Below, piece by piece: positions 29,620 to 57,993 of a stretch of DNA of 64,000 nucleotides. The translations under genes and the position numbers were made by a program. Where the stretch lies: NCBI RefSeq assembly GCF_041381155.1, contig NC_091134.1:68056469-68120468 (forward strand), written 5' to 3'. The notes under the pieces are model-generated. The model was not told the DNA's origin. It saw only the letters and a list, made by a program, of their open reading frames with translations, and did not search any database. The DNA is from Argopecten irradians. Lineage: Eukaryota > Mollusca > Bivalvia > Pectinida > Pectinidae. Numbering within the stretch: position 1 is the stretch's first letter; each line of letters begins with the position of its first letter.

Positions 29620-29671
29620 TATATAAAATGTCTGTGAGACCGTGAATCGAAGGAGCAGAATTTTGTGACAG
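29620..29671 (+). promoter_or_regulatory. TATA box and 5' noncoding exon of receptor unit A
   Basis: TATATAAAA at 29620-29628 would place a transcription start near 29650. A strong donor CAG|GTAAGC follows at 29671/29672, so the first exon is probably only about 20-50 nt. This mirrors the short noncoding first exons of units B and C. Confidence 0.55.
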
Positions 29672-31709
29672 GTAAGCGGTAGTATACTTGAAGTAATTAC
29701 CAGTTTAATGAATTGTATCTGTCATAATATGTATTAATGTTATTTTTTAACATAATTTAGGCAACATTTTATCCTATAATGTAATTGGTAGTAACAAACT
29801 TTATAACTTTGACAATGTAGGGGAAAAACGTTATAGGGAGATTACTCACGTTATCGTAGTGATATTTTGTTTTTGTAAAAACTCGGAAGCAACCCGTTAT
29901 GTATAACTCCATCGTTAAATTGTTTTGTTGTAACGCGAAACTCATGCGTATAACTCTACATTAAACTGTCGTGCTGCGACGCCTAAGCAACGCCTAACTG
30001 CGTTTTAAAAATGAGAGACGTACAGTATACATATAGACTATATTTTGATGCGTGGTGCAGAAATAAAAGGAAAAAATGTTTACAAGATGAAATATAACCG
30101 TTATTCAACAAGAAACAAGGAATATTCTATTTATCACATGTAAGTCTCTATTCTAGGCCTAAACTAGGCCAACTGATGCCAGCACATGTATTACAATCAG
30201 CTGCGATTGTGCCGCTTATTTCACACATGGAGTACAAATTTAGGGGAAAATAACATAATCTACCGTATTGCAGCACATTTATGCCCCAACAATTAAAAAT
30301 GATTTTTTTTCCATTTTTTCCATTTTTTGCATATAACAAATTTATAGATACATGGGACATCAACATACATTTGAAAGGACATATACATTACATTTCTATC
30401 ACAAAAAACCCAAGAGAAACAAAACATAACATGCTGAGTAAGTACATGGGAAAAAACTGTTTGATATATTTTGGTTAAGATGAATTTGCGAATTACTATA
30501 TTTGATAAACAGCTAATAGTAATAATAATATTGGTAAGGGAAGATAACCCAGATTCACTTTACTCAACAGCCATAAAGACAGGGAAAAACAAACAGAAGA
30601 AAAAATCATGCATACTACACAAATGAATAGGAGCTAATAGGTATAAGTATATATGTAGACAACATATTGATTTGCAAAGCTAAATATATCTAATAAACTG
30701 AAATTGGTTTTTTTTTTTCATATTAAATCGATATATCAAATATCTTTTAATATCATTGAAAGTAAGCTTATTACATTTTCTGGAAGAAACATAGATAAGG
30801 TATTTTGTATGAAGTATTAAAAAAATTAGAGGAAAAAAATGATAATTGTTGTTTTTCCCGAATAGGGTTGACATAATATCTAGTTCTACATTTTATCGAT
30901 TGTATTTTCAATCCATCTAATTAGGTGTTGCCAAAGAATTTTAGTTTCATTACATTCCCAAAATAAATGTACGATGCTTTCAGTTTCTATTTTACATAAA
31001 TTACATTTGTTACAATTCCAAAACTACAATGTTTTTTAAGTACATATTTAGGGGAAGAATTCTGTGTTGCAGCCTATATTGGAACCATTGTCTTGTGTTA
31101 TTTTGAAGATATTTGTGTATATTTGTTTTCGGTTTTCTATTTGAATATTGGGATTTAAAAGCCATTTCAATTCGATAGTGTTTATATTTTGTGTGAAATG
31201 AAAAAATAATAGGAAAGATGCTATTAATATTATATTTTTGGTTTGATATTTAAAAAGGTATTCCCGCCAAAACGACATTTTGACTATAAATGCTGTGATT
31301 TGATTAGTCAATAAATTGAGTGCAAATATCAAAAGTGATATTTTCACTTGGGTGAAAAATACACCATATATTTATCATGATCTTTTACCCAGAAAAAAAT
31401 GTAATAATGTGAAATAAGTAATCAAAAACAAAATTAAAATTAAAATGCTAGAATTTTTTACCTGTCATATTTCATTTCAAAGCTGTATCTTTTGAATTAT
31501 TTCTAATTGAAAACACCAATGTTTCATGAAATACTATCTGATACATGTACTTCCGATGATGATTTTTTCTTTGCTTTACCATATAAATAACATGCATTTC
31601 GCATTAGATACAACCCGTTACAGGGTTTCGTAAAAACAAAAAAATGAACAAAAAATAAACCAAACTAGCTGACTTACCATGCTAACAATTTGTTATATAT
31701 TGATTGTAG
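29672..31709. other. Unit A intron 1
   Basis: AT-rich intron. The only recognised content is the minus-strand LINE remnant at 30680-31350. Confidence 0.55.
30680..31350 (-). mobile_element. LINE 3'-end remnant (L1/Tx1-like), minus strand
   Basis: Read on the minus strand it gives ELKWLLNPNIQIENRKQIYT and CNTEFFPKYVLKKH. A cysteine/histidine motif, CNLCKIETESIVHLFWECNE, and then TKILWQHLIRW follow. Further on comes TKYLIYVSSRKCNKLTFNDI. This CxxC..HLFWxC..W block is typical of the C terminus of L1-like reverse-transcriptase proteins. The reverse-transcriptase core is absent and the frame is broken, so it is a dead 5'-truncated copy. Confidence 0.7.
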
Positions 31710-34570
31710 CTAGGACTATTATCGACGGCAGTAGCCATGAGACATTCCATATGGATGATCCTATGGATAGTACAAATACTCACTAACACCGCAGTTACTA
31801 CAACTCTTACAACCATACCCACCACAACAACCCCCACTACAACTACACCGACTACAACTACAACTGTTACAACCATGACAACTACAACTCCTACAACCAA
31901 CCCGACCACAACTCCTACAATCACACCCTCTACAACTCCTACAACCTCACCCACTACAACTCCTACAACCACACCTTCTACAACTCCTACAACCACACCC
32001 TCTACAACTCCTACAACCTCACCCACTACAACTCCTACAACCACACCCTCTACAACTCCTACAACCACACCCTCTACAACTCCTACAACCACACCCTCTA
32101 CAACTCCTACAACCACACCCTATACAACTCCTACAGCCTCACCCAATACAACTCCTACAACCTCACCCTCTACAACTCCTACAACCTCACCCAATACAAC
32201 TCCTACAACCTCACCCAATACAACTCCTACAACCTCACCCAATACAACTCCTACAACCTCACCCTCTACAACTCCTACAACCACACCCTCTACAACTCCT
32301 ACAACCACACCCTCTACAACTCCTACAACTAAACCCTCTACAACTCCTACAAGCACACCCTCTACAACTCCTACAACCACACCCACTACATCTCCTACAG
32401 GAACATTCACCACATCTCATACAACCACGCCCTCTACAACTCCTACAACCGAACCCTCTACAACTCATACAACCTCACCCACTACAACTCATACAACCCC
32501 ACCCTCTACAACTCCTACAACCACACCCTCTACAACTCCTACAACCACACCCTCAACAACTCCTACAACCACACCCTCTACATCTTCTACAACCACACCC
32601 TCTACAACTCCTGCAACATCACCCTCTACAACTCCTACAATATCACCCTCTACAACTCATACAACCACAATCACTACAACCACACCCACTACAACCATAC
32701 CCACTACAAACACACCCACTACAACTACAACTCCTACAACCACACCTACTACAACGACACCCACTACAACCACACCCACTACAACCACATCCACTACAAC
32801 TACACCCACTACAACTACAACTCCTACAACTATACCCACAACAACCACACCCACTACAACTACAACTCCTACAACCACACCCACTACAGCCATACCCACT
32901 ACAACCACACCCACTACAACCACACCCACTACAACCCCACCCACTACAACCACACCCACTACAACTACAACTCCTACAACCACACCCACTACAACCACAC
33001 CCACTACAACTACACCCACTACAACTACAACTCCTACAACCACACCCACTACAACCACACCCACTACAACCACACCCACTACAACCACACCCACTACACC
33101 ACCCACATACCACACCACTACAACTACACCCACTACAACCACACCCACTACAACTACAACTCCTACAACCACACCCACTACAACCACACCCACTACACTA
33201 CACCCACTACAACACCCACTACAACTACAACTCCTACAACCATACCACTACAACCACACCCACTACAACCACACCCACTATAACTACAACTCCTACAACC
33301 ACACCCACTACAACAACATCCACTACAACTACACCAACTACAACTACCACTCTACAACCATACCCACTACACACAACTACAACTACCAACAACCACACCC
33401 ACTACAACTACACCCTACAACCACACCCACTACAACCACACCACTAAACACACACAACTCCTCACACACCACTACAACTCCTACAACCACATCCCACACA
33501 CTACAACCACACCCACTACAACCACACCCACTACAACTACAATCTACAACCAACCCTCACCTACAACCCACCACCAACCACTACAACCCATACAAACACC
33601 CACTAACACAACTACACACAACTCCTACAACCACACCCACTAACCACACTCAACTACAACTACACTCACTACATACCCACTACAACCACACCCACTACAA
33701 CCACACTACAACCACTACAACACCCACTACAACACACCCACTACAACTACACCCACTACAACTACCCACTACAACACAACCCACTACAACACCCACTACA
33801 ACCACACCCACTACAACCACACCCACTACAACTACACCCACTACAACTACAACCACTACAACCACCCTACAACCACACCCACTACAACCACACCACTACC
33901 AACTACACCAACTACAACTACCCACTACAACCATACCCACTACAACTACAACTCCTACAACCATACCCACTACAACACACCCACTACAACCACATCCACC
34001 ACTCTACAACCACACCCACTAAACCACACTCACTACAACACTACACCACCACACCCACTACAACTACAACTCCTACAACCATACCCACTACAACCACACC
34101 CACTACAACCACACCCACTACAACTACAACTCCTACAACCATACCCACTACAACCATACCCACTACAACCACACCCACTACAACCACACCCACTACAACT
34201 GCAACTCCTACAACCATACCCACTACAACCACACCCACTACAACCACACCCACTACAACTACAACTCCTACAACCATACCCACTACAACCATACCCACTA
34301 CAACCACACCCACTACAACCACACCCACTACAACCACACCCACTACAACCACACCCACTACAACTGCAACTCCTACAACCATACCCACTACAACCACACC
34401 CACTACAACCACACCCACTACAACTGCAACTCCTACAACTATACCCACTACAACCATACCCACTACAACCATACCCACTACAACCACACCCACTACAACT
34501 ATACCCACTACAACCACACCCACTACAACCATGTCCAGTACAATAACAGCATCGTGGAGCACAGCCCGAG
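31710..34570 (+). CDS. Receptor unit A: signal peptide and Thr/Pro mucin exon
   Basis: The acceptor is TGATTGTAG (ends 31709) and the ATG is at 31737. A signal peptide, [20 protein letters not shown], is followed by Thr/Pro/Ser repeats. First come 24-bp units (TPTTTPST, about 31900-32650), then 15-bp and mixed units (TTTTP with TTTTTPTT spacers) to about 34540. The exon ends [14 protein letters not shown] plus one base at donor CGAG|GTACGT (34570), phase 1. The frame is clean from the ATG to about 33188, and between 33190 and 34030 many small indels scramble it. No transmembrane or Ig exon is seen before unit B starts, so the exon is either a free secreted mucin, a truncated duplicate, or an alternative stalk spliced to the Ig exon at 39651, with which it is in phase. 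Confidence 0.75.
31785..34540 (+). repeat. Coding Thr/Pro minisatellite (24-bp and 15-bp units)
   Basis: The left third is built of ACTCCTACAACCACACCC followed by TCTACA (24 bp). The right part is built of ACTACAACCACACCC (15 bp) interrupted by ACTACAACTACAACTCC. The antisense strand is also open (Val/Gly or Cys/Ser/Gly repeats), purely because of composition. Confidence 0.93.
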
Positions 34571-35640
34571 GTACGTATAAGGTAATGGTTGTGTGTATCC
34601 ACTTTCAAGACAATTCAATGATAATTTTCAGTCTACAATGTACTTATTTTTCAGAAGTGCTTCAATTTATATGATATGCATTGATGTAAGTCAAAATATT
34701 TTAAGTGCAGTTAAGGTATTCAGAATTCAAGGGTTTTATTGATATTGTAATTACAATGCATAGATAAAAGATATTTTTTCAAACCTCCCCTAACCCCCGA
34801 CCCCATCCTTTTACTCTCCCTTTTTATTGGGGGATCAGACAGTATCTACATTACGGTATTGATGAGGACGGGAAACAGGTAAGTGATTACTTTACGGAAC
34901 ACTTATCTGTGTACGACCAAAAAGCCAACAGCAAATGAATGGTACATGAGATGATTCCGATAGACCAGCAGAATGAGCGTTCAGTTTGGAGAAAAGTGAC
35001 ATCTGTCGCCGCTCGCGAGATCCCTAAAATCAAGGATTATATCAGAACTGGATACCCGGTAAATTGTCAACCTGTTATATACATTGTGCTTTTCTTGATA
35101 AATCATTTCCTCAACAAAGTCGATTTATATCATAACTATGGTTAAAGCGATTTTTTTCACAGAATTCCTTTCTCCAAATAAAATAATGACATATAGCTGT
35201 CTGCAAATGAATATCTATGAAGTATTGATTACATTTTACTACAACCTGACGTTTTAAACATTTCAGTTGTTTCAACCTAAACATGCGTTACATAATACAA
35301 ATACGTGTAAATCTGGATCATGATAAAAACATTGATTTTTCATTGAATTTATCAGCACTGAGGGTAGACAAATACATTTCTCTTGGTATGCGTTATCTTT
35401 GATTTATATCGAGTTTGTATTGCAATATTTGAATCAAGCTTACATTAAACAATATAGGACTTTGGGCCTATAAAATGTTTACAATAAATATTAGACTATG
35501 TAATATATTTCATGTTAACATGTTTATTTGACGCTCTTGTTTTTATAGATAACCGATTTTGTTTAGGTATTGATTTAAGGCCAGTTGTAACAGGTAGGGT
35601 ACGATCTTGCCCCCGATAAAACTGATAGACAAAGAAATTT
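34571..35640. other. Interval between unit A mucin exon and unit B first exon; contains a coding-like relic
   Basis: At about 34831-35042 the plus strand reads RQYLHYGIDEDGKQVSDYFT, then IDQQNERSVWRKVTSVAARE and IPKIKDYIRTGYP. This is protein-like but not intact and not recognised, and GTAAGT occurs within it at 34879. The rest is AT-rich with nothing recognised. Confidence 0.4.
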
Positions 35641-35713
35641 CTTGCTGATCTGCCGGTTGATCTTACAGGTACTGGCGGAGGAAAGTTATTTTAGATCACA
35701 ACAGGATTTACAG
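35641..35713 (+). promoter_or_regulatory. Unit B 5' noncoding exon
   Basis: The exon ends GGATTTACAG at donor GTAAGC (35714). It aligns by eye with the unit C first exon: CTTACAGGTACTGGCGG here against CTTAGAGCTACTGTCGGG there, and TTATTTTAGA against TTATTTAGA. A GATAAAA lies at about 35619. The transcription start is not fixed. Confidence 0.6.
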
Positions 35714-38700
35714 GTAAGCAATATAGTCCAAATAAGATCTAATAATGATTTATTGAACGCTTCATAAATGATTAAAATACTTGGACAGACAAACACGTTT
35801 AATGCCTTAAAAACATTAAGTACGACACATAATTTATCGCACTACACAATTCTTGTTTGGTATGCCTTGTCTAGGTGTAGATGGAAACATACATACAGAA
35901 ATAACTTTACAATTACTTATAACACTGTAAAATTGTAAAATGAAATAGAAGACCACAAATTGGCGTTATATGTACTCATTTCACTGCACTGCAGATGTGA
36001 ATATAATGATTTTTGGCAGTACTGACAATAATCATTTTCAGCTCTTATTTGTAAAACAAACACCTATGGTTAGAAAATTTACCTTAAATTTCATCGAAAA
36101 TAGAAGCATCAATGAGAACCATGCTAGGAAACGAATAAAAATATTATTGTTTGTGAACCATTTTTACGTAATATTGAACATTTTGATTCCACAAAGATGC
36201 TGATGTGGTATCATCAAGTTTTAAAATAGTTGTATGTCAAATAACCAATTATGATGCCAAGTTATGTTTTAGGTTAGATATAAAATCGCTATTGCCATCT
36301 AGACGTATAACGTTATAACATATTTAACTTCAATGCATGACAATAGCATATTACATAGAGAGTACATGTAATTGAATTATGTTTTTGTTGATTGATGTAC
36401 AATGAATTTGTCTTTGTTTGCAGAAATCAGGAAAAGACATGTATCATAATCTCTTATTGAGACTTTTAGTCCTATGGACAAGTCACATAGTTATTTTGAT
36501 GTCTGAATCTTCGACATCCACCGTCGTCACACTGCCCCCTACGTCATCTGCTGCTTTCTCGATGTCCAGTTCATTCACATCATCTACAACACGTGTAGAA
36601 TCGTCTTATTCTCATTCAGTATCAGCTGTAGCGTCAGGTTCCAGCACAGTCATAGCTCCGACGTCTGTATTGGTGTCGATATCGCAGTCACTAGATTCGT
36701 CTGTGCGTCTTCAATTGAATAAAACAAATGCCACATCCCCAACAACAGAACCACACTCGGAGCATACATACGCTATGTACACAAGTATAGAACAGACATC
36801 ACCTATACTGCCATCAAGTGAGTCATTTGATCAAACAAAATGGCCAACGCCATATACAGGTATGGATACTGCGAGCCATTACAGTTCAGGCGATACGTCC
36901 TCATCCAACCCGATCTTACCACCTCAGGTAACTCAATCACGGGGCATACCTTCCACCCAATCAGTAATATCAACCACATTAGACTCGCTAAGAGGATCAC
37001 ACTCAACCTCTATAGAACCTACAGCCGGTGGACTCGTTACTCCTACACTGAATGTATCACCATCTGACGAGACTAGCCTCATTGTTTCCAATTCACCTAC
37101 TAATAACTTTACAGAATTCACATCTGAGATAGGCTCTTCTTTGTATACGTCTGCCGTGTTCCATGATGTAACAAGTTCTCCTGAGCTGACATACAACATA
37201 GCAAAGCTAACAACATCACACACAAACAACACAACCTCTCCAGCAGTAATAACATCCTCTGATAAACAGGGCACTTTAGACATATATACAAACATATCTG
37301 CGGAAACTACAGAATTGCATACATCTACATCGGAATCTACCTCTTGGACTCAAAACACTACAGATCTGTATTCATCTACAGCGGCATCAACTTATTGGAC
37401 TCAAAACACTACAGATCTGTATTCATCTATAGCGGCATCAACCTCTTGGACTAAAAACACTACAGATCTGTATTCATCTACAGCGGAATCAATTTCTTGG
37501 ACTCAAAACACTACAGATCTGTATTCATCTATAGCGGCATCAACCTCTTGGACTAAAAACACTACAGATCTGTATTCATCTACAGCGGCATCAACCTCTT
37601 GGACTCAAAACACTACAGATCTGTATTCATCTATAGCGGCATCAACCTCTTGGACTCAAAACACTACAGATCTGTATTCATCTACAGCGGCATCTACCTC
37701 TTGGACTAAAAACACTACAGATCTGTATTCATCTACAGCGGCATCAACTTATTGGACTCAAAACACTACAGATCTGTATTCATCTACAGCGGAATCTACC
37801 TCTTGGACTAAAAATACTACAGATCTGTATTCATCTACAGCGGAATCAACTTCTTGGACTCAAAGCACTACATATCTGTATTCATCTACAGCGGCATCAA
37901 CTATTGGATCTACAGATCGTATTCATCTACAGCGGCATCAACCTCTTGGACTAAAAACACTACAGATCTGTATTCATCTACAGCGGAATCAACTTCTTGG
38001 ACTCAAAACACTACAGATATGTATTCATCTATAGCGGCATCAACCTCTTGGACTAAAAACACTACAGATCTGTATTCATCTACAGCGGCATCAACCTTTT
38101 GGACTCAAAACACTACAGATCTGTATCCATCTACAGCGGCATCTACCTCTTGGACTAAAAACACTACAGATCTGTATTCATCTACAGCGGCATCAACCTA
38201 TTGGACTCAAAACACTACAGATCTGTATTCATCTACAGCGGAATCTACCTCTTGGACTAAAAACACTACAGATCTGTATTCATCTACAGCGGAATCAACT
38301 TCTTGGACTCAAAACACTACAGATCTGTATTCATCTACAGCGGCATCAACTTATTGGACTCAAAACACTACAGATCTGTATTCATCTACAGCGGCATCAA
38401 CCTCTTGGACTAAAAACACTACAGATCTGTATTTATCTACAGCGGCATCAACCTCTTGGACTCAAAACACTACAGATCTGTATTCATCTATAGCGCCATC
38501 AACTTCTTGGACTCAAAACACTACAGATCTGTATTCATCTATAGCGGCATTAACCTCTTGGACTCAAAACACTACAGATCTGTATCCATCTACAGCGGCA
38601 TCAACCTCTTGGACTCAAAACACTACAGATCTGTATTCATCTTTAGCGGCATCAACCTCTTGGACTCAAAACACTACAGATCTTTATTCATCTTTAGCGG

Positions 38701-41700
38701 CATCAACCTATTGGACTCAAAACACTACAGATCTGTATTCATCTACAGCGGCATCAACTTCTTGGACTCAAAACACTACAGATTTATACTCATCTGAAGC
38801 GGCATCAACCTCTTGGACTCAAAACACTACAGATCTATACCCATCTAAAGCGGCATCAACTTATTGGACTCAAAACACTACAGATCTGTATTCATCTACA
38901 GCGGCATTTTCTTGGTCACAAGAAGCTTCATATACAACTATAACAGGATCATTTGAAACACAAACAGCATATTCATCTACATTGCTACCGTCAAAAACTA
39001 TACCGTTAACAATGACATCTTTACATAATCTAAAGTCAACAACTTCTTTGAGACATACAACAGACTATTTTGCTACTGTGCCTCTAAATGATACACATAT
39101 AACAACTACTACTCTTACATTTACGTCATACAGTAAAAACTTTACGTACTCATCAATGAACCCTTCATCAGAAATACATTCCACGCCAATGACAAAACAA
39201 TACACGACTGAATACTCGTCTACCGTAATATACGACGACACCTCTCCATTTACTCCTCCCGTTTCATCAACCGAACAAACATCAAGCTTTACGACAGCCC
39301 AGAAAACTGGTATTGCATCGACTGCAGCGCCACTAGAAACGACCACTCAAGGTAGGTAACTTGAATATTAAACATATGATTTTTAAACGCACGTAGATAA
39401 ACCTGGCAGTTTTATACAGTTGCCGTGTCCTGCTTATGATAATACTATATGGAGTCATGGGCCGAATATCTTGAAACCTAATATCTTTTATGCAACAATA
39501 CCTTGCTGAATGTCATATCAATATTGTTTAACTCTTTTCATTTCGGATTTAGTTCAAATGTTTTAATTAGAATGTATACATGTAAATATCCTAGTTACCT
39601 GATAATTTGGTTTTCATTTTAAATTTTAATTTTTGAATTTTTAATCGCAGGGTGTCTGACATTTAGCCATAACAACGGAAAATCTTATAAAAAGGAAGAA
39701 GAAAGCAATTTGACACTGATCTGCGAATTTAACACCAGTGGAAACTGTGACACTATTCGATGGAAAATCCGGAGCTATGAGAGTGACAAAAACACAACAA
39801 AGATCACAATCACACACAATGTGACCCGAGACAGATCTAAATCAAAGTTGGTTATTCGGCAGTTATCCCTAAACGACAAAGGTGAGACGACGAAGTAAAG
39901 ATAAACAAGATGTCGTTTTTGGTTATTTTCCTGATTCGATGTAAAGAAAAGTAGTTATTTGAAAAGAAATCACAGTTTTGTGAAGTCAAAGAAATTAAAG
40001 TTGTCGTTAATATCGTCTCTGAGGAAACCATATATTTATTAAAGCTATAGATCTAGGATATTATAAATCAATTTCCATCAATAATTTCTTCGATTTTCCC
40101 ATTGAAAGTAATTTTGAATTTCATATGTGTATGCATAGTAGTATACGATGCCATTGTGTGATACAATTCGTTGATGCCTGATTTTTTGATAGCTTATACT
40201 CTTAGTTGAAATTGAAATAGGAATAATCGTTATAATTAGAGCCTCACATTTCACATTAAATACGATTTAATTGTTTAAAACTCTGAAAAATTATATATGT
40301 CTTTTAAACCTTATTAATAGGAAAGGAGTCAATTTATTAGTCGAGGCAAAACCGAGTTTACTTCATGTACACGCAGATCATAATGTTTTGTTACAATGGA
40401 AATTATGTTCATTATAGGAAATATATCCTGTCACCTGGGCAACGGAAACATTACGTTTGATATCAGTGTTCAGCCTCTCCCGAGGTTAGACATCTTCCCT
40501 CCATCTTCTGTGGTAGAAAACGGGAATCGTGTGGATCTGGTATGTAATATAAGTAACGCAGATAAAATCAACATCACGGGATGGAAATTCAGCTGGCAGC
40601 GAAACGGATCAAATGTCACCACCGGTAAGGTTCTTTCTTAAGGAAGCTCCAGAACTCTCTCTGGTAAAGGTTAACCTTTCAATAACCTTGTTGGTTTCAG
40701 AAACAATGAACACTGCACAATCAACAAGGGAAAACCAAATACCTGTATCATTTCTTCCGAAACAATTTTGGCTGAACGCTTTATTTCAATGTAACTATTC
40801 ATGATATATGTAAATCCTATATCGGATAGATAAGATATTTCTGAAACAAGCAACTGTATTACCTAGATTGTTTTTAAATACGCATGTGATATGTATGGGA
40901 TTGAATAAGTTAGTAACGTTGATAAACAATTTAACACTGCACATAAATTAATTAACCGACCTTAAACTTAGTTCAGACACACAGAATTGGGCTATGTATT
41001 CATTTGCCATTATTTCCGTGAACACGTACTCTTTAGTAAGTCACTCTATAACGTCACTAACTATGCATATGACAACAACCAAAATATTCCAATGTGTCAT
41101 ATTTGCGGGACACAATTTACAAACGTAATTTACATGTTGTCTTATTCAACACATCTGCCGTGTAATTTGAGTTTCAGAATTCCAAATTCCCTCAGAAACC
41201 CAGTGAATCCACTACGCTCCGTTTATAGGCTGTTTAACGTTGGTGACCGATGATGTTACTATAAATGATCTTACACAAAAACCAAATCAGTCATAAAAAA
41301 GACTCCGATAATACCAAGTCTTGACCTTAAGGTGTTCCGGCGTTGTTATTTTCGAGTTTGATAATACTGTAAAAGTGATATAGTACATGCATATTTAATT
41401 AAATTAACTACATTCAAAGGATCAGGAAAAGTAACGCCGATTAATGTGTTTGATTTACTTCCAGGAATCTCCAGAAATACGTCGGCATCGTCATTGCATT
41501 TCACGAGCTCATCTAATGGGATTTACCAATGTAAACTATGCCAAAAACGTTCACCTGAACAGTGTCAGATTTCGAGGAACAGTAGTGTACAAGTTTACAA
41601 AACAGGTAATTGACAGTAATATTCAAGATCTTAATGCCATATGCATGTCGCATCGTGTGTTCATTTTATTATAATTTTACTACGTAGTTTTATAATTGGT

Positions 41701-44700
41701 AGCTAGGAATCCAATTGACTTTGTGGTCTCAAATTTCGTTGATATGTTCTTGTAGTCTTGCATTAAACACAGTAAATTGAATACCTAAGTACATGATAAA
41801 TACATTTGTATATGAATTGATGTCATAGTGCTCTAATAATAGCTTCAAATGTATCCCGAGGTTAATATCCCAGTACTTTTGAAATATTTACGACTTCTTT
41901 TAGCGGCTGCCAAGTGTGGTGCTGGTACAGACAGTGGAATTCATTGGGAAGACACTCCTGCTGGTTTTCAACTAGAAAAGAAATGTCCCGAATCGAACTC
42001 TGGTAATTGTATTGTAACCATACGGGAAACATAATCCGTCTGGTGTTTTAGTGGTTTTTGTCTATGTTATATGTTTTTAAACAGAAGATATGCTCTGATT
42101 TGCCCTTTTCTCATTGGCTAATGTATGATCACAGGAATAAAAACATATGATTTTTTTCACTATATTTTGGCAGGTACTGCAACACGAAAGTGTGATACAA
42201 ACGGCAAGTGGGAAAACACAAATATGATTTACTGTGTTAGCAAGGAGATCGAGGAAGCAACAAAAACGGTATGTACACTTTGTCAAAATATCCTATTGAA
42301 AACTTTAGCTTGAAACTATATTGTTCATGATTTTATATAATATTGATAAATATAATATGTCAATAATGGACCTTTAGAGGTACATATGGTGTTAAATCGC
42401 CCGAGAAGAATAAAATTTAAAATTCTACAATGGTGATATAACACCATATGAACCGAAACAAAGGTTCTTAAGTTTTATATTAGATATGTAGTTTCTTTAA
42501 CAAATGTCAAAAACAATCTCCTAATAATTACAAGAAGAGCGTTGATCAAAGAACGCCACCCTGAAGAATGCAGCGTTTGGGGAATGAAGTTCGTAAAGGA
42601 ATTTTGACTCGGTGTTTCTAAAAATGGAAATACCGAGTCAATTTGCTATATATTGTACATCACTTGACTATGTATAAGCCAATGAAAATAATACACCCTC
42701 AATGGAATAGCTTATAATTTGAACTTAACTGAATAATAATAAACAAATTATCAGCCTAGTGTGTTACATAAAGCTAAGATAATTAATCTTTAGATCAAAG
42801 ATCTTGAGGGACTTCCCGACGAAGAGAAAAAGGAGGAGATTGGAGGTGTGTTAGACAGTATAAAAAATGTTACTAGTGAAAGCAATAGACCAAAAGAAAA
42901 GGCCATTTCATCTGGGAATCTTAGGGCTACAAATGAAGCATTAACATCCATGGTGAACATAATCAACAATAGTTCAATTGAGATGGATAATACTACACAG
43001 AAGGTAAGTTACGTCATAGGCAAATCATCTAGTTTATATGTCATCGCAAAATGAATGTAAAACATGGTGATATTTTGGATTATATTTGATGATTTTAGTT
43101 ATCTAGGTTCTTTAATTAGCTGGTGACATTACAATATGTTATATGATATGGACCAACATTGTCGAAACAGTTAATATTTATAAGGGTATGGACTAAATAT
43201 AGAAAGAGGTTTATGATGTCAAGGTAAAAGTGCTGATTTGATTCTGCAGAACTTCGTTGGGATAATCGATGATATGCTGTCGGTGGAAAACAAAAATTCT
43301 TGGACAGAGGTTGATGACCAGAGTGATATAGTGGGTATCTTAAATTGAATCATTTCATATATCCAACAAAATAATGACTATTTCATTCAAATACTGAGAC
43401 GCATTATACATTAAGACGTAGTGTGCCGATAGCATTTGTTTAGGTCGGCCGGTCTTACTTGATGAAAAAACTTTAAATTGTTGTTCTTGTGGAATTAAGA
43501 TTTAATTTAAATTATTTTGTGTAGTCATATCTACGAATAACGATGTTTCTTGATTTGTTTCGTAGGATCATGTAACCTATTCGTTTAGTGAGGTTAACCA
43601 TCGACTGCGTGTAAAAGTACAACAGATGTCACTATGATCTAATAATATCCCAAAATTAAGGCCAGTCGAGAAAATGGTATATTACTTGTTGTTTGTCTCC
43701 AAATATGCTGATATGTATTTAAAAATTAATTAATCTATCACATAAAGTTAATGCTTTCCAAAATTCATTACGTCTTAACTGGATATGATCCATATAAACA
43801 AAAGTGTTCAAAACAATTTCATGTTTTTTTTATTTAACAGACAAGCAATTCAGTACCTGCTGCTGGCACTTTACTGACTACAGTGGAGACGTTTGGTGTG
43901 TCTGTAGCCAAGAGTCTCCTCCCTGGAGAATCCGTGGATCTCGTCAACACAAACTTAGGTATTAATCTCTTGGTAGTCACTGAACATCGTAAATACTGCC
44001 AGGATAAGGAACGCAATCTGGAACCAAGAAACAAAACAGAAATTCCAAAAATTCCCCGCGGTACCAATAATGCAATTTGCATCCTTTAAAGTTTGTCAAT
44101 GAGTACATGTAGACATTGAATATCAATCATTTAGAATTAGCAGAAATAGTTTTAAAACTCAAATTAAATGAGTTCCAGTGTACTTATATATATATTTGAA
44201 TCCATTTGATAAGGTTTCTATTCAACAGTTATCAAAATAAAGAACACAAATGGCTCCGTTATCGATTTTAAACCGACTGACTCAGCAAAGGGAACCAGTA
44301 TAGATTTCAACCTTGATTCGAATAAAATTCGTGAGTATAGCTTATTGAATTATTTGATATCAACTTAAATTATGATATGATGTAGTATATCATTATGCAT
44401 ATGTTTTACGCTAATTTCTGATACTGGTAACTTATCATGCTGTGAGAAAGAAAGTTGTATCCACTTACCCCGTGATCGTCTTTTCTACCCCATCAGACAG
44501 AGATATCTGTACTTCCGGTGGGGGAAAGATTTCTCTGTCTTACCCAAGGAATATTCGCGTGATAACTCGGAAATCGTAAAACGTCATATGCAAATAAAAA
44601 TTAACATGTGTAGTCCAATATGACATTCTATATCACCTTTAGCCGTGAGCTCGTGCTACACGGGCGTGCTGAACTAAATCATCGCAGTCGGAAGTCATCC

Positions 44701-47700
44701 TGCCTTCACATATTTCGTTGATGTTTACGCGATGAAAAGACTGAAATTCAAAGGTTTGATACAATATATATTATAGGTCTTTGACTTAACATGTTTCGAA
44801 ATGATATAAATTATTTTTTGTTACAGTACAGTACGAGTTTAACAAGTTTTTGAGTATTAAAAATACTACAATTTGATCGATACAGTTTAGTAAACAAACA
44901 TACAATGTATGTCTTCGCTTTTTTTGAAATCGCGTCAGGTAGTTTTTAACATTGTTTTGGAAATGACAGAAAGAAAAATGATCATCCCTATCTAAAGAGT
45001 AGGACAAGGAAATCTCTACCCTCGGTTAGACAATCGTGAATCTATTCATTGGGTAAATATGTCACTGTCCTACCCTCAAGGTTCATGTACACTGACGATA
45101 TTTATTCATGTGAATTTCATGTGAATTTATGTTAAGTAAAAATTCACGTGAAATTTACATGAAAATAATTCATGTGAATGCCACGTAAATTTCATGTGAA
45201 CGTCACGTGAAAAAATTCCACACGAAATTCACTTGAATTTCACGTGAACTTAATGTAAAATTTACGTGAAAACTTTCATGCAAAATTCACGTGAAGAAAT
45301 ATTGCCTGTCTAGGGAATGATCCTATTGATCTGAAATGAACGATTACATGAAGATAAGACCGACATGATCCATCTCATTACAGAAAACGGTAACGTAACA
45401 TTTACTGCGGCGCTGTATAAAACTATGGGCACTTTACTTCAAAACAGCAACAGGTATGCTAATTAAATTTCAGGGTTTTCTTCATAAAGTTACTATAGAA
45501 TAGTTTATATCACAAATAGCTTAATATGACATCTAAATCGGTTTTTTAATCTTAGTTTTAATTTTGATTGATAGCCACAACACTGTAATTGTAAACATGT
45601 ATAAAGTCTGATTTGAATTTTTAATTCGACCTAATTATTAACCTATTATTCACTCATGCCCTTTTCAATGTTTCAGCACTGACGTTACCTCGGAGGTTCT
45701 GGCTCTGTCCGTCCCTGGACATAACACTAGTTACCTACCGAGTGGTGTTATTTTAACTTTTGACCTAAATAATCTGACAAACGAGGTAAAGATTCCAAAA
45801 ACATCATCGTAGAATATATTATCATAACATTACCTAAAAATTGATAATTTTATTGATTTGTTTAATGAATGTATTTTAGGGCATAGTTGATAAACAATGG
45901 GATATATACTATAAAATTGATATTCACTGTCATTTAGTTTATACCTTAGGACTTATGATAAGCCAGGTATCCAAAATTAATGGGATTAATTGTAACAACA
46001 ATCTTTTACAGACAGAACTTCCACTAGTAGATGCAGTAAATGACTGACAAATATAATTAACATGGCGTATAAGAGACCTCCAGAGTAGACTAGTTAATGT
46101 CAAGGAACGACAGTCGCAAAATGTTATCTGATGGTATTTTAATAATGGTTATGGAACTGATGTCTGGTAAACATCTACTGATTAATTTTATGATATCCAA
46201 GTTGTGCTTCTTTTAGAACAACTTTACAGAAGGCAATAACAAACGATGCGTGTTCTGGAACAAGTAAGTGTATTGTTTAAATTTTAATTTTGTAATATAT
46301 ATTTATATTGAAATGTCAAAATCAATTTAGTGTCTTTTGATTAATCATCAGTTATTTTTTTAATCTTAACAGACTTTTAAAAATGGTGTGAAATCCAGTT
46401 TTTAACATTCTGGTATATTGAAAATTCCTTTTGGTATTGCTTGTCCTTTGCTTTTTTGTAATACAAAAAGTGCTTTTTATTTTGGTTCGCTCACTACCCC
46501 GTATGCATGCACTTTTTCATTGACGCGCGAATATATGGATATTTATAAAGAACCACAGCAAATGTTGTCTATAAACGACAACGAGATTTCACCTCCGAAG
46601 GGGAAATGGTTACGATATAATTAGGACTATCAACAGATTATTATCCTCTTCATACTATATCATAATGCCGTGGAAAGTTTAATGTTGCTTTCAGGGTCCC
46701 AATGAGGACTTGATAAGGAGGTAATAAACAAAAACCTATACATAATATATGTTTTATTCACAGTACACAAGGCTGGGATTCAGGTGGCTGTAGATGGAAG
46801 AACGGATCCTGTAATTGTACTCACCTGACGAACTTCGCGGTCATCATGAGTCCTGTTAAGGCTTCGGTAATACAATATCGAAATTATTGTAATGTACTAA
46901 AATTGATAAATATATGATGTCATTAATAACATGTAATTAACATATACAGTTGTGATCAATATATAATCCTCAATTGCTTTTGGATCTTGATGAGGGTGCA
47001 GGTAACCTATCCTTACTGGGCTGACATTATCTGGTATACTTAAGTCTGTTTTATAACTGGTTCAATCAGCTTTATAATTGGGTGACCTATTGTTAATGAT
47101 GTATTAACAAACTCATTGAAATGTTATCATACATCAGTTGAACTATCTTTATAACAACATCTTACTTTATTTTAAGAGAGTCCAATGAAAGAAAGAAACT
47201 TGTATAAGTCTGTATTTTAAGTTTTTATACTATAAAAATACATCTTGTTTGTATGGAAGGCGCTTTTTTTACCGGACGGCTGCAGCATAATTTTAACACA
47301 TTTAGGACAAAATAGACATAAGTCTCAAATGTAACTATAACAGTTATGGAATACAATATGTTTACTTTGAATAATATACTTCTTCTTCCTATCTATGTGA
47401 CACAGGACGCCTATGTACTCCGGATAATTAGTTTTGTGGGATGTATCCTTTCCGTCATATCCACTGTAACAACAGTTGTGGTGTACCTCAAGTTATGGAG
47501 GTAAGCTTATCATTACAGATACATACTTTAATTTCAGGTATGAAACCTGACGACTAGCAGGTTTTAATAAGGTTTTTCATAGCTTTGTCAAGGCCTGTCT
47601 GATTACAACATAAAACAGTCAGATCATTATTTCATAACAAACAGCTAGGTCAAACTAGTTCGATTATGTTAAAACTGCGCAGATGCTATGGTCAATATAT

Positions 47701-50700
47701 TAAAAGTAATTCCTGCGGAATGTCTACTGTGTTCACCATTTTTTGTCTTTGTTGCCCTCGTTGAATTGATTTAGAAATATTATTTTCTGTTATATTTTCT
47801 AAGGTATCTGAAAAGTGATGGAAGTCGTTTACTTCTCAATCTGTGCACAGCACTGACCTTTGCTTATGTGTTATTTCTGGCGGGAATCGACCAAACACAG
47901 GACAGTGTACGTATAACTATGGAAACTAATGATATTGGCTTTAATCTAAAGGTGGAAATCTGATTTACAAATCATCAAACTATTTGTAGTAATGCCAATT
48001 CTCGTTGTTACCTTGCAAAATAAGAGAACATTGGAATCTTTCATGACATGTGCTTCAGCTATTTAACAGGTCCTGTGCACGACTCCGGCTGCATTTAATG
48101 TGCTTTAAATATTTAACAGGTCATGTGCACGACTATGGCTGCATTACTTCATTACTTTTTCCTATCGACATTTTGTTTGATGCTTGCTGAGGGAATTCAA
48201 CTTCTGATATCCGTAACGTTTGTTTTCCACGCTACATCGAAACTAAAATGGCTGCTACTTGTTGGTTGGGGTAAGTACTGTAACAAAGAGCTGTCCGATG
48301 TTGCTATATGGAGATAAATGATAATACAAATCGCATATAAATAAAATGGGAGAGCGAGTAATAACTGAATGCAAAGACGCCATCGGTGTTTCAGCAGTTC
48401 TAAATGACGTCGTGTGATGACTTATCTATTGGCACAATGCTGTTCTTTACCACTTTTGACACATCATATATTACAGGTTTCCTTATTTACCATTATTATT
48501 TAGGACAATCGTGCCAAGTTCATTGTACGATAGGTAAATAAAACACATAGTAAGGGAAGTTAGTGTTATGTCGCTCAACCACACTCCGTCGATGGTCGAT
48601 ATAATATTCTAAATCTGATAGTAGCTATCACGTGATATTTAGACATATATATTTAATCTTTACAGGTTTGCCGCTGGTGATTGTAGGAATAACGATCGGT
48701 GTGACGTATGACAACGAGTATAAAGCTGAAGACTAGTAAGTATATCGTGATGTTACTGGTTTCTTCTATAACGAACATTATAAAGACATCAGAGAATAAC
48801 AACTTAAATGTTAATTAATGGTTAGATAGTTAGACACGTGTTAATACAAAATCTTAATTGTCATTTATTCCATTTATTCACAAAAACAATGCCAAACAAA
48901 ATCGTCATTATTACTTTTATTTTTTTTATTGTATCTTAGTCATTATTTCATTAATAATTGTTTAAAGACCCTCATCATTATCCCCATGGATGATGTTGGG
49001 GTAAATAGAAGCCGAGATTGCCTTAAATCTTGACCGACGTTATGATTGTTATCACTCCAGCTGTTGGCTTACACTGTCCAATGGTGTGATATACTCTTTT
49101 GTCGGGCCTGCTGTCTGCATCATCATGGTAAGGCTGAGAGAGAAATAATGTTTAAAATTTTAAGTTTAATTGCATTCTTCTCCATCTTTCCGTATTTTTA
49201 GGGGAAATCGTGGGTAACACATAGTAAAAAATCTAAAAAGATAGGAACTAGCAATTAATATTCATATTCAATATTTGATTTCATGCTACGATACTTATTA
49301 TACTCATAAATATTTCATGAAATGTTTATGTGCAAAACATAATTCTAAGAGTTTAAATATGCATATGGTTAATTACCTCAACTTTGAGTAAACAATTGTC
49401 TGTAATATTGATGTTTTGTGGATAGTGTCTATTATTGGCCTACACTATTTTGTTTCATTATTGGCTTCCGTCATTTTGTTTATTAATGGTTTATACTATT
49501 TTTTTTATTAATGGCTTACATTATTTTCTTTCAGATTAATGTCATTGTCATTTTTCACGTAATGAAGGCAATGTTTTCATCAAAGCTCATTGCGACGAAA
49601 ACAGAAAAACAGAAAATCTTGTAAGTGTCCTGTAAAATATATCTTTCCGTTGTAAAACATAAACTGTTAACAGCAAAATTACATATTATGTCTTAAAATG
49701 AAGTAAATGGATAGACTTAACTGATGATATGTTTTAAAGACAAATACTAAAACCGACAGAGTGTGTGATTTGTTCTATATATGTAACTGTAAACTGAGTT
49801 TTAAAAGTTATTAACTTACTTTCAATAATATACTTATCACCATTTCATTCACATATCACCGGTTACTTTGGGTGCAGTTTGTTGTCATTATTTTCCCTGT
49901 GAGATATATATACTCAACACCACGTTGGTTCCTCTTCCTTTTATTTAATTATGATTAATATGCATATACAACATCCTTATACATATTGTTCCATGGGAAG
50001 CATTTGCCTTTATCTGCAATATTGTAGCTCAAAAGACTTTTTGACAGAAAATGGTGTCGTCTTCCGGCCGAAAATTATAGTAGGCCGGGTACGTATGTTC
50101 GTTCTAATTTGCCTTGTTTCTCTTTCTCTTAGTATTGTATGAATCCATTCCATAAGTTCAAACTCTGGACCACTCTATATTCCTCTGTACATGTCTGACC
50201 AATAGCTTTTCACTCTTAACTTTCAACTTCTGTCTCTAACTTCAACTCTGTCTCTTTCATTTCTATTCTATACCTTATAAGCTACATGACTAAACTAACA
50301 TTTCTACTCTAACAATCCACTATTTCTATTGGCTAGTTTATCTATCTGGAGGCGAGTCTACATTTATCCTTTTGAAGTCTTTGGTGACTATATGCTGTCT
50401 CTGGACCTTGGTTGAAACTATCAATGGCTTTAACTAAATTGACCATGCTTCCACACACCATTGTCCTCTGTGTGTCTTCCGTCCTTACTCCCACACTCTC
50501 CATCTCCTTTGAAATCTATATCTGTGTGTGTCCTGGTCCTTTCACTATTGTTAACAGTTTTAACTAATTACTTTATTGCTTTCTCTGAACTCTTCTGATG
50601 GTACTTATTCTCATTTTTCAACTGTCATACACACTTAAAATGTACTAATGTTTATTTCGATAGTGTGGGCAACCTTGTGTAGCAAAGAAACACATTGTTT

Positions 50701-52979
50701 ACGCAGTTCACACTGAGAAAAATAGGATATATACATGCTTGATATGTTGTAATTATTAGATAAAGACATGATAGGACTTGTTTAACAAAGGCTGTACATG
50801 TTTGGTTTACAGTGCGGGGGTCAGAAGTGTGATGGTACTTCTGCCCATTTTAGGAATCACGTGGCTGTTTGGAATCATCTCTATCAACAACGACCTACTC
50901 GCCTTCCAGTACCTGTTTGCTGTTACTAATTCATTACAGGTTACTTACATTTATTTCTATTTGTATTACATAATCCATCGTTAGAATTTTTTCACCAACC
51001 TATTTGTTTGATGATGAGTAAATATTTCTCTTTACTATTTTTGAATTCATTTTCTCTATAACAGACCTGTACTGTGCGGATCGTGGTTAACTTTTATTGT
51101 GTCTTCTTCTATCAATAGAAAGTCTTCATAGTTATTTATCCCGTTAATAAGATTATATGGAGGTATAGCATTTGGTCGTTTGTTATACGCATGGCAATGG
51201 CACCATGTTGTAAATGTAGATTTACTATCATCATCATAGTTAGTTATCCTGTTAATAAGCATGTTTTCTTTTGCAGGGATTTTTCATATTTCTGTTTTAC
51301 TGTATTTTCAATCAGCCGGTGAGTTGAAAATAATTTTTCTTTCTTTCTAAATTTAATTAAGCGAAAAACATGTATGATTTGGTAAGATATTAAATTTGTT
51401 TATCTAGCCGTATCAGAAACAAACAAGCAATATTTACATTGTTACAACTATACACCTAAACTAATATATTGTATACTTCTTCTTTTAAAACATCATTGCA
51501 ATATGGGCAAATTTTACCAAAAAATGTCACCAACGCTAACATTAATTCCACAGGTCCGAAAAGCATTAGAGAAAAAGATTAAACGGTTTGAATCAAGGAC
51601 CCAATCATCTAGGACTGGAAGTAAATTACAGGTAAGCGTTTCGGTATAAGACTGGAAATAAATTACAGGTAAACATTGTTATTTGAACTATTTCAATAAA
51701 ATGGTTTATGTTTGAAAGAAACGCAATCTTTAATATCAACGGAATTGATTACTTCTTTTGAGTTTTGTTTGCAGGTGTGTGTTTTGTGTTAACTAATCAA
51801 CATATTCATATAAAATATAAATATTGCATTGATGTTTCGACAGATGCTGAAAACGAATTCCAGTGATAGCAGTAAGTTAAAAGGTACATCTCTGTTGTTG
51901 GTAAAAGCTCTTTTATAGATCATGATTGGAGCATACCATATCTTCCTTGTATTAATAACCTGTTTCTCTAATACCTGTGTGTAAAATGTATATAAAGAAG
52001 AGACCGAACCGTTTTTATATAACTATTTTATATACAGATGTACAGTTATATTATATAATTATTACTAATCTGTTTGCATGTGTAGTTACAGATGACGAAA
52101 TAAGACTTGATGATTTCCATATCCCGAGATTACGGCTTCCTCCCCCATCAATGGATCAGCGTGGTGAAGATGGACAGCAAGTACGTTTATGTGTTTCGTG
52201 AATGACACTATCCCATATATTACAGATACATTATCGTAATAATGAATAATGGTCTTTTTCATTATTAACATAATAAATTGCATTCAATAATATTCATTGT
52301 CTTTATAATAGTACAAGAGCAATATCCCCGACATTTTTGACTGTTCACTACCTTTGCAGAAAAGGCAGAAAAACGTTACCTTTGAAATTAAGATATAAAG
52401 GGAGAATGTTTATTGTTATAACAAGATGGTATAAATATGAAAAATGTAAAATTAACCTTTTGCCAAAATGAAAATGAATCATTATATATAAATTAAGTAT
52501 TTTTTTACGTTATTATATTTTATTTCCATAAAAAAAAGACAAATTAATTTTTTTTATAAAAACAATATTGATGATGAAACGGTTCACTGCTTATTATAAA
52601 AAAGACACGAAAAACATATCACATAAAAAGTTAATTAGTAGCAGCACAATAAAAAATTCTTATTTCGTTGCATTTAAGACTAAGTCGATTCTTGGTTTAT
52701 TTTTTATTCTATAATTTTCTCTAAAAATAACACTACAAAAGGATGTTAATCTATATCTCAACATATTGTTATGTACATGTATACATATGGTAATATTGAT
52801 CCTGACCTATGTAGATAAACCTATAAGATATGAAAAGTAAGATAACCGATTGTATCTCCTTTGCTCCTCGTTTTCAGATTTTACCGTCTAGACAGTATTC
52901 GTCATCATCATCCTGGTATGATAACGACCAGTATGGTTCCCGTTTATTGAAAAGTAATCCGGACGGAAAACAGTTTTGA
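35641..52979 (+). CDS. Receptor unit B: mucin-stalk adhesion GPCR (Ig, HormR, GAIN, GPS, 7TM), 26 exons
   Basis: This is a cell-surface adhesion G-protein-coupled receptor. Exons are 35641?-35713 (noncoding), 36424-39351, 39651-39881, 40418-40624, 41465-41605, 41904-42002, 42174-42268, 42794-43003, 43250-43330, 43841-43958, 44229-44330, 45384-45453, 45677-45785, 46217-46263, 46764-46866, 47406-47500, 47804-47906, 48120-48270, 48666-48735, 49061-49127, 49535-49620, 50813-50939, 51277-51318, 51554-51631, 51844-51883, 52086-52180 and 52878-52979. The last 25 are joined by consistent phases and give 889 residues after the stalk. The order is signal peptide, mucin stalk, Ig-like region, hormone-receptor domain, GAIN, GPS, seven helices, tail. 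The weakest junction is the donor at 43330 (GTGGGT). The reading frame is broken once, within the stalk repeats near 37905. Confidence 0.94.
35714..36423. other. Unit B intron 1
   Basis: AT-rich, no recognised repeat or exon. The branch region and acceptor TCTTTGTTTGCAG lead into the mucin exon. Confidence 0.5.
36424..39351 (+). CDS. Unit B exon 2: signal peptide and Ser/Thr-rich mucin stalk
   Basis: The ATG at 36439 starts MYHNLLLRLLVLWTSHIVIL, a signal peptide ending before SESSTST. Some 290 residues of Ser/Thr-rich sequence follow (to about 37323). Next come about 31 copies of a 17-residue repeat, STAASTSWTQNTTDLYS, then about 140 more Ser/Thr-rich residues ending LETTTQ plus one base at donor GTAGGT, phase 1. 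Each repeat has one Trp and one NTT sequon, with Gln/Lys and Ala/Glu as alternating choices. One repeat near 37893-37925 is 10 nt short, so the frame changes there; upstream and downstream frames are each open for their full lengths. Heavy O- and N-glycosylation is expected. Confidence 0.9.
37324..38920 (+). repeat. 51-bp coding minisatellite (about 31 copies)
   Basis: Unit: TCTACAGCGGCATCAACCTC, TTGGACTCAAAACACTACAG, ATCTGTATTCA. The period is 51 bp, a multiple of 3, so it is stable in frame apart from one shortened unit. Copies alternate ACTCAA (Gln) and ACTAAA (Lys), and GCATCA and GAATCT. Confidence 0.95.
39651..41605 (+). CDS. Unit B exons 3-5: Ig-like region
   Basis: Three phase 1-1 exons (39651-39881, 40418-40624, 41465-41605). 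The first reads GCLTFSHNNGKSYKKEEESN, then LTLICEFNTSGNCDTIRWKI. The second has NISCHLGNGNITFDISVQPL and a new strand pair, NRVDLVCNISNADKINITGW. The third closes with NGIYQCKLC, the Y-x-C motif of Ig folds. Together they make about two Ig-like domains with many N-glycosylation sequons. The first is clearly paralogous to the unit C exon at 63231-63470. Confidence 0.88.
39882..41464. other. Introns between the Ig exons
   Basis: Two AT-rich introns (39882-40417 and 40625-41464). Short open frames here show no family similarity. Nothing else was recognised. Confidence 0.5.
41904..42268 (+). CDS. Unit B exons 6-7: hormone-receptor (HormR) domain
   Basis: Exons 41904-42002 and 42174-42268 encode AKCGAGTDSGIHWEDTPAGF, QLEKKCPESNSG, then TATRKCDTNGKWENTNMIYC. 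The pattern W..TPAG....KCP....G.A.R.C...G.W......C is the HormR motif found in latrophilins and other adhesion GPCRs just before the GAIN domain. Confidence 0.9.
42379..42454. mobile_element. 76-bp hairpin element in a unit B intron
   Basis: Inverted repeat arms GGTACATATGGTGTTAAATC (42379-42398) and GATATAACACCATATGAACC (42435-42454) match at 18 of 20 positions. It is a tiny MITE-like foldback. Confidence 0.65.
42604..42641. other. Short hairpin in a unit B intron
   Basis: TTGACTCGGTGTTTC and GAAATACCGAGTCAA can pair over 15 bp with one G-T pair and an 8-nt loop. Function unknown. Confidence 0.5.
42794..46866 (+). CDS. Unit B exons 8-15: GAIN domain and GPS
   Basis: The GAIN alpha-helical part starts IKDLEGLPDEEKKEEIGGVL and continues LRATNEALTSMVNIINNSSI, NFVGIIDDMLSV and TLLTTVETFGVSVAKSLLPG. 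The beta part includes GNVTFTAALYKTMGTLL and STDVTSEVLALSVPG. It ends in the GPS: CVFWN, then WDSGGCRWKNGSCNCTHLTN and FAVIMSP. Autoproteolysis would cut HL|T, leaving the tethered agonist TNFAVIM. All GPS cysteines and the tryptophans are present, so cleavage competence is likely. Confidence 0.95.
44331..45383. other. Largest GAIN-region intron, with a palindrome patch
   Basis: About 44450-45085 contains CTACCCCATCAGACAGAGAT and a later ACCCTCGGTTAGACAAT stretch, resembling parts of an interspersed repeat. The palindrome patch at 45085-45300 follows. Confidence 0.45.
45085..45300. repeat. Patch of short palindromes (TTCACGTGAA theme)
   Basis: Variants of AATTTCACGTGAATTT occur about every 15-20 bp. 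Four keep the exact CACGTG hexamer and others have CATGTG. The design resembles the 28540-28880 patch but uses a different core word. Confidence 0.7.
47406..51318 (+). CDS. Unit B exons 16-23: seven-transmembrane region
   Basis: Helix 1 is DAYVLRIISFVGCILSVIST. Helix 2 is LLLNLCTALTFAYVLFLAGI. Helix 3 starts VMCTTMAALLHYFFLSTFCL. Helix 4 is KLKWLLLVGWGLPLVIVGIT, with the family GWGLP motif. The second extracellular loop and helix 5 contain YCWLTLSNGVIYSFVGPAVC. The third intracellular loop is SSKLIATKTEKQKIL. Helix 6 is VMVLLPILGITWLFGI and helix 7 LLAFQYLFAVTNSLQGFFIF. Conserved Cys in helix 3 and loop 2, W-L...GP and LLP.LG.TWLFG mark family B2/adhesion receptors. Confidence 0.96.
48047..48146 (+). 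repeat. Tandem duplication of a 3' splice site and exon start
   Basis: ATTTAACAGGTC, then CTGTGCACGACTCCGGCTGC, at 48061-48096 is repeated 50 bp later as the real acceptor and start of the helix-3 exon (48111-48146, GTCATGTGCACGACTATGGC). The upstream copy ends without the rest of the exon. Confidence 0.85.
49621..50812. other. Long intron between helix-5 and helix-6 exons
   Basis: It is pyrimidine-rich between about 50150 and 50640. A segment at about 50029-50089 is flanked by a TTGTAG acceptor and a GTACGT donor and reads SKDFLTENGVVFRPKIIVGR. It is 61 nt long, so including it would shift the frame. Confidence 0.45.
51554..52979 (+). CDS. Unit B exons 24-27: cytoplasmic tail and stop
   Basis: Exons 51554-51631, 51844-51883, 52086-52180 and 52878-52979. 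The tail starts VRKALEKKIKRFESRTQSSR, continues TDDEIRLDDFHIPRLRLPPP and ends YGSRLLKSNPDGKQF. It is Ser/Arg-rich, about 105 residues, with no evident PDZ-binding end. Confidence 0.9.
51610..51672 (+). repeat. Tandem duplication of an exon end and 5' splice site
   Basis: GGACTGGAAGTAAATTACAG|GTAAGC (donor at 51632) is followed 40 bp later by GACTGGAAATAAATTACAG|GTAAAC. Using the second donor would insert an in-frame stop (VSVSV and stop). Confidence 0.85.
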
Positions 52980-57642: not shown

Positions 57643-57993
57643 TGATAAACTAGATCATAATGTAACGGACACAAGAATATTGATTTTTTTCGTTGTAAAT
57701 TTTACCTATAAAACATGCATCCTTGTTATATATTTTGAAATGCAAAGACTAACCTCCTTTGATTTATAACGAGTGTAAATAGCTACAAATACACTACGGA
57801 AACATTGAAACAAAATCAAACTTTGGTCCTTTAAATACATGCAATAAATTTGACGTCGGGTAATCTGTTAAACATGATCGTACTGATAACAATATCAGAC
57901 CGCCAAAATTGTGTAGATATTGATTCACCGTTCATTTTAACAGGTACTCAAGGATTCGTTCTAGATAAGAAGACATACGTGATTGTTTCCTGG

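Follow-up and report, generated by a model that had tools for sequence, protein, structure and literature searches.

A mucin-like 5' unit at the head of a tandem adhesion G-protein-coupled receptor array: paralogue stalk diversity or swappable stalks?

Can two mucin-like stalks be joined to one adhesion G-protein-coupled receptor (GPCR) body? The question is raised by a locus of Argopecten irradians in which a mucin-like unit, here called unit A, precedes a receptor gene, unit B, that has a mucin-like exon of its own. The analysed DNA, hereafter the window, covers the 64,000 bases from 68,056,469 to 68,120,468 of contig 1 in a genome of 846 Mb. Bases 29400-64000 were read closely, and 90 kb upstream and 110 kb downstream were added to give a joined stretch of 264 kb; window numbering is used throughout, including beyond the window ends. 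The initial annotation had proposed that A is spliced directly to the first immunoglobulin (Ig) exon of B, exchanging one stalk for another. The reading that we slightly favour is a four-gene array with a variable signal-peptide exon, headed by A as an orphan 5' unit whose own product would lack a receptor body. Compared with a swap by splicing, stalk diversity between paralogues has the stronger support and is the less unusual reading of the locus. The coordinates are collected in Table 1.

On its predicted exons, unit B is a complete adhesion-GPCR gene, with a signal-peptide/mucin-like exon followed by Ig, hormone receptor (HRM), GAIN, GPS and seven-transmembrane (7TM) regions. The 24 exons from 39651 to 52180 join in consistent phases and give 856 codons without a stop. 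Pfam placed Ig_3, HRM, GAIN, GPS and 7tm_2 above their cut-offs, with E values of 6.4e-52 for the helices (PF00002) and of 3.6e-13 (PF16489) and 4.8e-8 (PF01825), both over cut-off, for the GAIN region with its GPS. When compared with solved structures, the helices gave their top scores with ADGRL3 and ADGRD1. The GPS contains the sequence HLT, the putative autoproteolytic cleavage motif. The splice-site matrices were trained on the exons of B, and its splice scores are therefore high by construction. Two further observations were made within the gene. The mucin exon holds early phase-1 donors at 36817 (8.7) and 36859 (9.2), which, joined to 39651, would drop the 51-base repeat and leave a short stalk; and a 50-base tandem duplication at 48048-48145 includes the beginning of a helix exon together with its acceptor, so that a decoy copy of this acceptor lies upstream of the exon.

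Receptor exons were sought with tblastn, using the whole B body (E<=0.01), and with phmmer --max, using nine B pieces from Ig1 to the first helices (E<=5); for the GPS and helix pieces the results cover the 14 matches listed. These searches showed four tandem receptor genes, B, C, D and E, on the same strand with B first. The Ig exons of C start from 63.2 kb and its helices lie at 83.7-87.8 kb; the corresponding positions are 99.5 kb and 107.2 to 115.1 kb for D, and 134.5 kb and 144.1-148.0 kb for E. The four bodies can be read directly from the sequence, as can the domains of B, the 5' homology of B and C and the outcome of each junction considered below. A whole-genome GPS search returned at least 13 matches, with D and E among the matches listed; B and C were absent from them, and the list is therefore incomplete. 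B and C share 77-97% identity over the aligned helix exons, 90% at the 3' end of B (52849-52947) and about 34% protein identity in Ig1. Two helix exons with their edges (B 47383-47507 and 50805-50941, C 83665-83789 and 86601-86737) reach about 97%, while the other aligned pieces are at 76-91%, and gene conversion is a possible explanation. In D, the long intron that separates the first two helix exons, at 107.2 kb and 113.2 kb, contains a repeat array at 107700-112500 with 15 copies of the donor-like GAGGTAAGT.

The signal-peptide exon would be the variable part of this array: the stalk is of the Ser/Thr type in B, with 51-base repeats, and of the Thr/Pro type in C, and D, as modelled, has none. 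The D exon was modelled at 99180-99252 (acceptor 8.0, donor 5.7), without a mucin and in phase 1 into the Ig exon at 99575; a signal-peptide scan offered 98044 and 99195 as candidates upstream of D, and 99195 was chosen. Provided that the D model is right, a phase-1 join from signal-peptide exon to Ig characterises the array, and the stalk was inserted into, or expanded within, the first of these exons. Diversity of stalks between the duplicated genes is supported, and it is between such genes that it would have arisen. Over the whole of the stretch beyond 29 kb, plus-strand open frames with a Ser/Thr/Pro fraction of at least 0.5 per 50 residues were confined to A, B and C; the other rich frames were two short ones at about -18 kb, well upstream, and a number of minus-strand frames. 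The same frame scan found no second mucin unit ahead of C, D or E.

Unit A looks like a real 5' unit, whose transcription, like every promoter and the 3' end of A, we infer; the promoters and first exons of both A and B are putative assignments from sequence. The TATA-like promoter that had been described for A corresponds to a TATATAA element, confirmed at 29620, whose role as a promoter is likewise putative. The short first exon described there ends in a strong donor (29671, 11.6), while its start is placed only by the TATA-like element. Donors scoring at least 11 were absent from an 88 kb control stretch; the 264 kb as a whole contained 36 plus-strand donors of this strength, of which 15 fall in one repeat array (107.7-112.5 kb), and 6 minus-strand ones. 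In the second exon, a signal-peptide-like stretch is followed by repeats whose Ser/Thr/Pro fraction is 0.93 over the first 200 residues after the leader, as in a mucin-like secreted protein. The signal-peptide calls rest on a crude hydropathy scan, which over about 261 kb asked for an ATG, a hydrophobic stretch (hydropathy >=1.9), an acceptor no more than 60 bases away and 60 open codons. Six start codons were found on the plus strand, four of which, at loci A, B and C, had a Ser/Thr/Pro fraction of at least 0.4; on the minus strand of the same stretch this was reached by 0/5. The hydropathy score of A was 2.53. An earlier scan, with a limit of 2.0 and an in-frame phase-1 donor demanded, had returned B and C only, and A was missing because its frame is broken; dropping the donor demand, lowering the limit from 2.0 to 1.9 and asking for 60 open codons yielded A, B and C.

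It is very improbable that A is no gene at all and that its mucin is a simple-repeat expansion beside a chance signal peptide. Such an expansion would fit a repeat with several open forward frames, as seen here, and the codon-position test gave little sign of protein constraint in A (p<0.05 in 1/11 settings, at 0.014, with position 1 the most variable in the first part). However, the test is low in power, reaching p<0.05 in 0/4 settings for the B mucin and 2/5 for that of C, and only A, B and C pass the combined scan for signal peptide, acceptor and Ser/Thr/Pro content. An 84-residue N-terminal query from A gave 11 matches in the genome at E<=10, of which only A itself was significant, the next standing at E 2.9.

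The initial annotation had stated that no Ig, GAIN or helix exons lie between A and B, and this was confirmed: between A and the B mucin exon, neither tblastn nor phmmer, among the matches listed, detected an exon of the Ig, HRM, GAIN or 7TM regions. By these searches, A has none of the GAIN, GPS and 7TM exons expected of an adhesion GPCR. Upstream of B in general, no tblastn match reached E 0.01, and the few permissive phmmer matches (E 0.34-4.4) included none within 29650-39600. That A is a relic, left at the 5' side by one more tandem receptor copy that lost its body and whose product is no longer made, would agree with its strand, its plan and its place at the head of the array, as well as with breaks in the frame of its mucin exon. 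The Thr/Pro frame switches 12 times under a strict penalty and 21 times under a loose one, and the ATG is in frame 0 while donor 34570 is in frame 1. All switches, however, fall within 33195-34041, that is, in 846 of 2,832 bases, with flanks of about 1.46 kb and 0.53 kb free of any change; 21 evenly scattered changes were never that close together in 100000 simulations. Since the breaks are confined to this one stretch, an assembly error (a poor consensus in the middle of the repeat) probably fits better than decay. The signal peptide, acceptor and donors of A are also intact and no trace of a receptor exon came up between A and B in tblastn or among the listed phmmer matches, and the relic is considered quite unlikely. 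The B mucin exon has one break (near 37915) and that of C two (near 60525 and 60677), leaving out of the counts those positions that the parser flagged within the two signal peptides and where the C exon ends. For the second exon of A, the acceptor, ATG, leader and Thr/Pro repeats were confirmed, and the single reading frame was not; the phase of donor 34570 relative to ATG 31737 is therefore an inferred one.

Whether A could serve as an alternative 5' end of B, by a junction from 34570 to 39651 that skips the 2.9 kb B mucin exon, was judged from the predicted joins. Donor 34570 (9.7) and the Ig acceptor 39651 (10.4) are both good and the join is open for all 856 codons, so the splice is allowed. 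A is also built on the same plan as B and C, and mammalian adhesion GPCRs commonly have more than one start and variants of the N-terminus, as far as the parts consulted of PMC6667449 describe. The phase match that had been put forward in favour of the splice is real, both sites being in phase 1 with A in its Thr/Pro frame, but it is uninformative. Phase 1 is the usual boundary of this array: it is found at all five acceptors of the B Ig and HRM exons, at 9/24 of all acceptors from 39651 onward and at the modelled signal-peptide-to-Ig junction of D, and the match would be expected anyway. For the same reason the open frame says little for A as an alternative 5' end. Donor 34570 can equally be joined in an open frame to 40418, 41465, 41904, 42174, 44229, 45384, 48666 and 52086, all in phase 1, and the other 15 acceptors lead to stops. 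Moreover, the B mucin acceptor at 36424 (9.1) intervenes, and a join to it gives a stop after 8 codons, so that only skipping this exon would yield a receptor. In the frame scan, no further mucin unit turned up ahead of C, the sister gene, and clear homology between A and B is lacking. A swap is possible, with support no greater than the array predicts, and we regard it as a tentative and rather unlikely alternative.

The kinship of the 5' parts was assessed by alignment against shuffled sequences and genomic windows. With strict scoring, the shuffles as good out of 200 numbered 20 (A/B), 170 (A/C) and 0 (B/C) for the first-exon region, 72, 142 and 32 for the signal-peptide region, and 144, 198 and 0 for the mucin-donor region. 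Looser scoring gave 4, 194 and 0 for the 5' side, and 6 (A/B), 91 (A/C), 29 (A/D), 4 (B/D) and 12 (C/D) for the signal-peptide region. Out of 300 genomic windows, those as good on the 5' side under looser scoring were 16 (A/B, donors in register), 209 (A/C) and 0 (B/C, donors in register); for the signal-peptide region they were 10 (A/B, acceptor and ATG out of register), 220 (A/C), 56 (A/D), 13 (B/D) and 166 (B/C). By these alignments, B and C are plainly related in the first-exon region and at the mucin-exon end, and neither shuffles nor genomic windows gave clear homology of the A 5' parts to B, C or D. The lack of signal for A in the signal-peptide region is weak evidence against kinship because B and C show none there either. 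The first introns of A and B carry different interspersed repeats.

On the favoured reading of A as an orphan unit heading the array, its transcripts would most likely end without a receptor body. They could encode a Thr/Pro mucin that is secreted and ends in a short tail, using an own terminal exon before B, or they could run into the B mucin exon and end at the stop after 8 codons. A continuous reading of A down to a stop codon and a poly(A) site is putative, the frame being broken as assembled and the candidate ends lying near the background rate. Between 34571 and 35600 there are four acceptors scoring at least 6 (about 2.5 expected, at 2.4 per kb) and two AATAAA signals (about 1.2 expected, at 1.2 per kb). 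The interval 34572-35600 matched only itself in the genome, as did a coding-looking peptide from it, which together with a neighbouring peptide gave no Pfam family. Donor 34878 (CAG/GTAAGT) is very strong (12.9), with no convincing acceptor ahead of it. An exon ending there was rejected as a third exon of A, as the acceptors that keep the frame open score poorly; 34878 may be the donor of another first exon for B.

Several observations weigh against this reading. The counts of acceptors and AATAAA signals are just slightly above background, and under loose scoring the C-like 5' flank of B extends back to 35027, which would place every site except acceptor 34655 within that flank and leaves less room for an own 3' end of A; such an end is thus putative, and most of these sites may belong to the B promoter region. 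The acceptor scan, which spanned 34620-36424 and not 36425-39650, gave no score as high as that of the Ig acceptor 39651 (10.4), and the A 5' side is slightly like that of B under loose scoring (16/300 genomic windows as good). In addition, a search for a first exon of D resembling those of B and C found none (197/200 and 112/200 shuffles as good), and the scan that gave the D signal-peptide candidates gave no such exon for E.

A fuller form of the swap, which we consider unlikely, would have two promoters on one receptor body, each adding its own long stalk (Thr/Pro from A, the 51-base Ser/Thr repeat from B), with the choice of start site setting reach and glycan coat; the B donors 36817 and 36859 could add a third, short stalk. 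Elsewhere in the window, a 147-base tandem repeat of 7.8 copies lies upstream of A (27256-28404), and an open frame on the minus strand (2632-2862) has a cysteine pattern resembling that of the DHHC-palmitoyltransferase family.

Table 1. Features of units A, B and C in window coordinates, with the observations that define them.
Feature	Position	Strand	Observations
Unit A TATA-like element TATATAA	29620-29626	+	TATAWAW occurs at 1.9 per kb on the plus strand; weak alone
Unit A putative first exon	29650-29671	+	Donor CAG/GTAAGC, score 11.6; start placed from the TATA-like element
Interspersed repeat, putative first intron of A	30287-31194	+	At least 82 further genome match segments (40/970 candidates scored)
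Unit A signal-peptide and Thr/Pro mucin-like exon	31710-34570	+	Acceptor 31710 (6.0), ATG 31737, donor 34570 (9.7), phase 1 in the Thr/Pro frame
Unit A mucin-exon stretch crowded with frame changes	33195-34045	+	0/100000 uniform simulations as tight
A-B interval	34571-35558	+	Acceptors 34655, 35163, 35267, 35549; AATAAA 35177, 35483; donor 34878
Unit B first-exon region	35559-35713	+	Homologous to C 57909-58063; start putative
Second interspersed repeat, B first intron	35766-36078	+	At least 40 further match segments (40/2916 candidates scored)
Unit B signal-peptide and mucin-like exon	36424-39351	+	ATG 36439; 51-base repeat; acceptor 9.1
Unit B Ig exons	39651-39881, 40418-40624, 41465-41605	+	All boundaries in phase 1; Pfam Ig_3, Ig_2, I-set
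Unit B HRM exons	41904-42268	+	Exon joins and Pfam
Unit B GAIN domain exons	42794-45785	+	Exon joins and Pfam
Unit B GPS exons, reading ...CNCTHLTNFAVIMSP	46217-46866	+	Exon joins and Pfam
Unit B seven-helix exons	47406-51318	+	Exon joins, Pfam and solved-structure matches
Unit B intracellular tail exons	51554-52979	+	Last exon 52878-52979 read by eye
Unit C first-exon region and signal-peptide/mucin exon	57909-61800	+	ATG 60039, donor 61800
Unit C first Ig exon	63231-63470	+	Ends read by eye; gene continues beyond the window to about 89 kb

Adhesion GPCRs are widely believed to respond to force on the ectodomain, and the length and glycan load of a stalk could therefore set their sensitivity. 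With or without splicing from A to B, the related bodies, either stalkless or with a stalk of the Ser/Thr or Thr/Pro type, offer a natural test series for the effects of the stalk. Like the known Ig/HRM adhesion GPCRs, unit B places Ig, HRM, GAIN and GPS before 7tm_2, the best-scoring solved 7TM regions being those of ADGRL3 and ADGRD1; the present genes differ in the very long, repetitive Ser/Thr or Thr/Pro stalk within the signal-peptide exon and in forming a tandem array with paralogue-specific stalks. Long stalks are not new, since the parts consulted of PMC13197933 already describe such a region in ADGRG4, flexible, glycosylated and some 2000 residues long. The likeness lies in the great length of the stalk and in its glycosylation, the latter being a prediction here; the ADGRG4 stalk lies between a pentraxin domain and SEA-HormR-GAIN, whereas the present repeats adjoin the signal peptide and precede the Ig domains. 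Mammalian adhesion GPCRs have several transcription starts per gene, some of which split the N-terminal from the membrane parts, and soluble N-termini are known (PMC6667449 and PMC13197933, in the parts consulted); the variants considered here, in contrast, are known from the anatomy of the sequence alone. A choice between two mucin stalks is not described in those parts of the two papers, nor are alternative mucin stalks on one adhesion GPCR in the titles and abstract openings of the open-licence PMC papers listed, which is no proof of absence. A parallel for the array itself is the octopus, where adhesion GPCRs form tandem clusters that likewise point to local duplication; according to the parts consulted of PMC6408891, the extra domains there are leucine-rich repeats and a Death domain, as against the mucin stalks of the present array.

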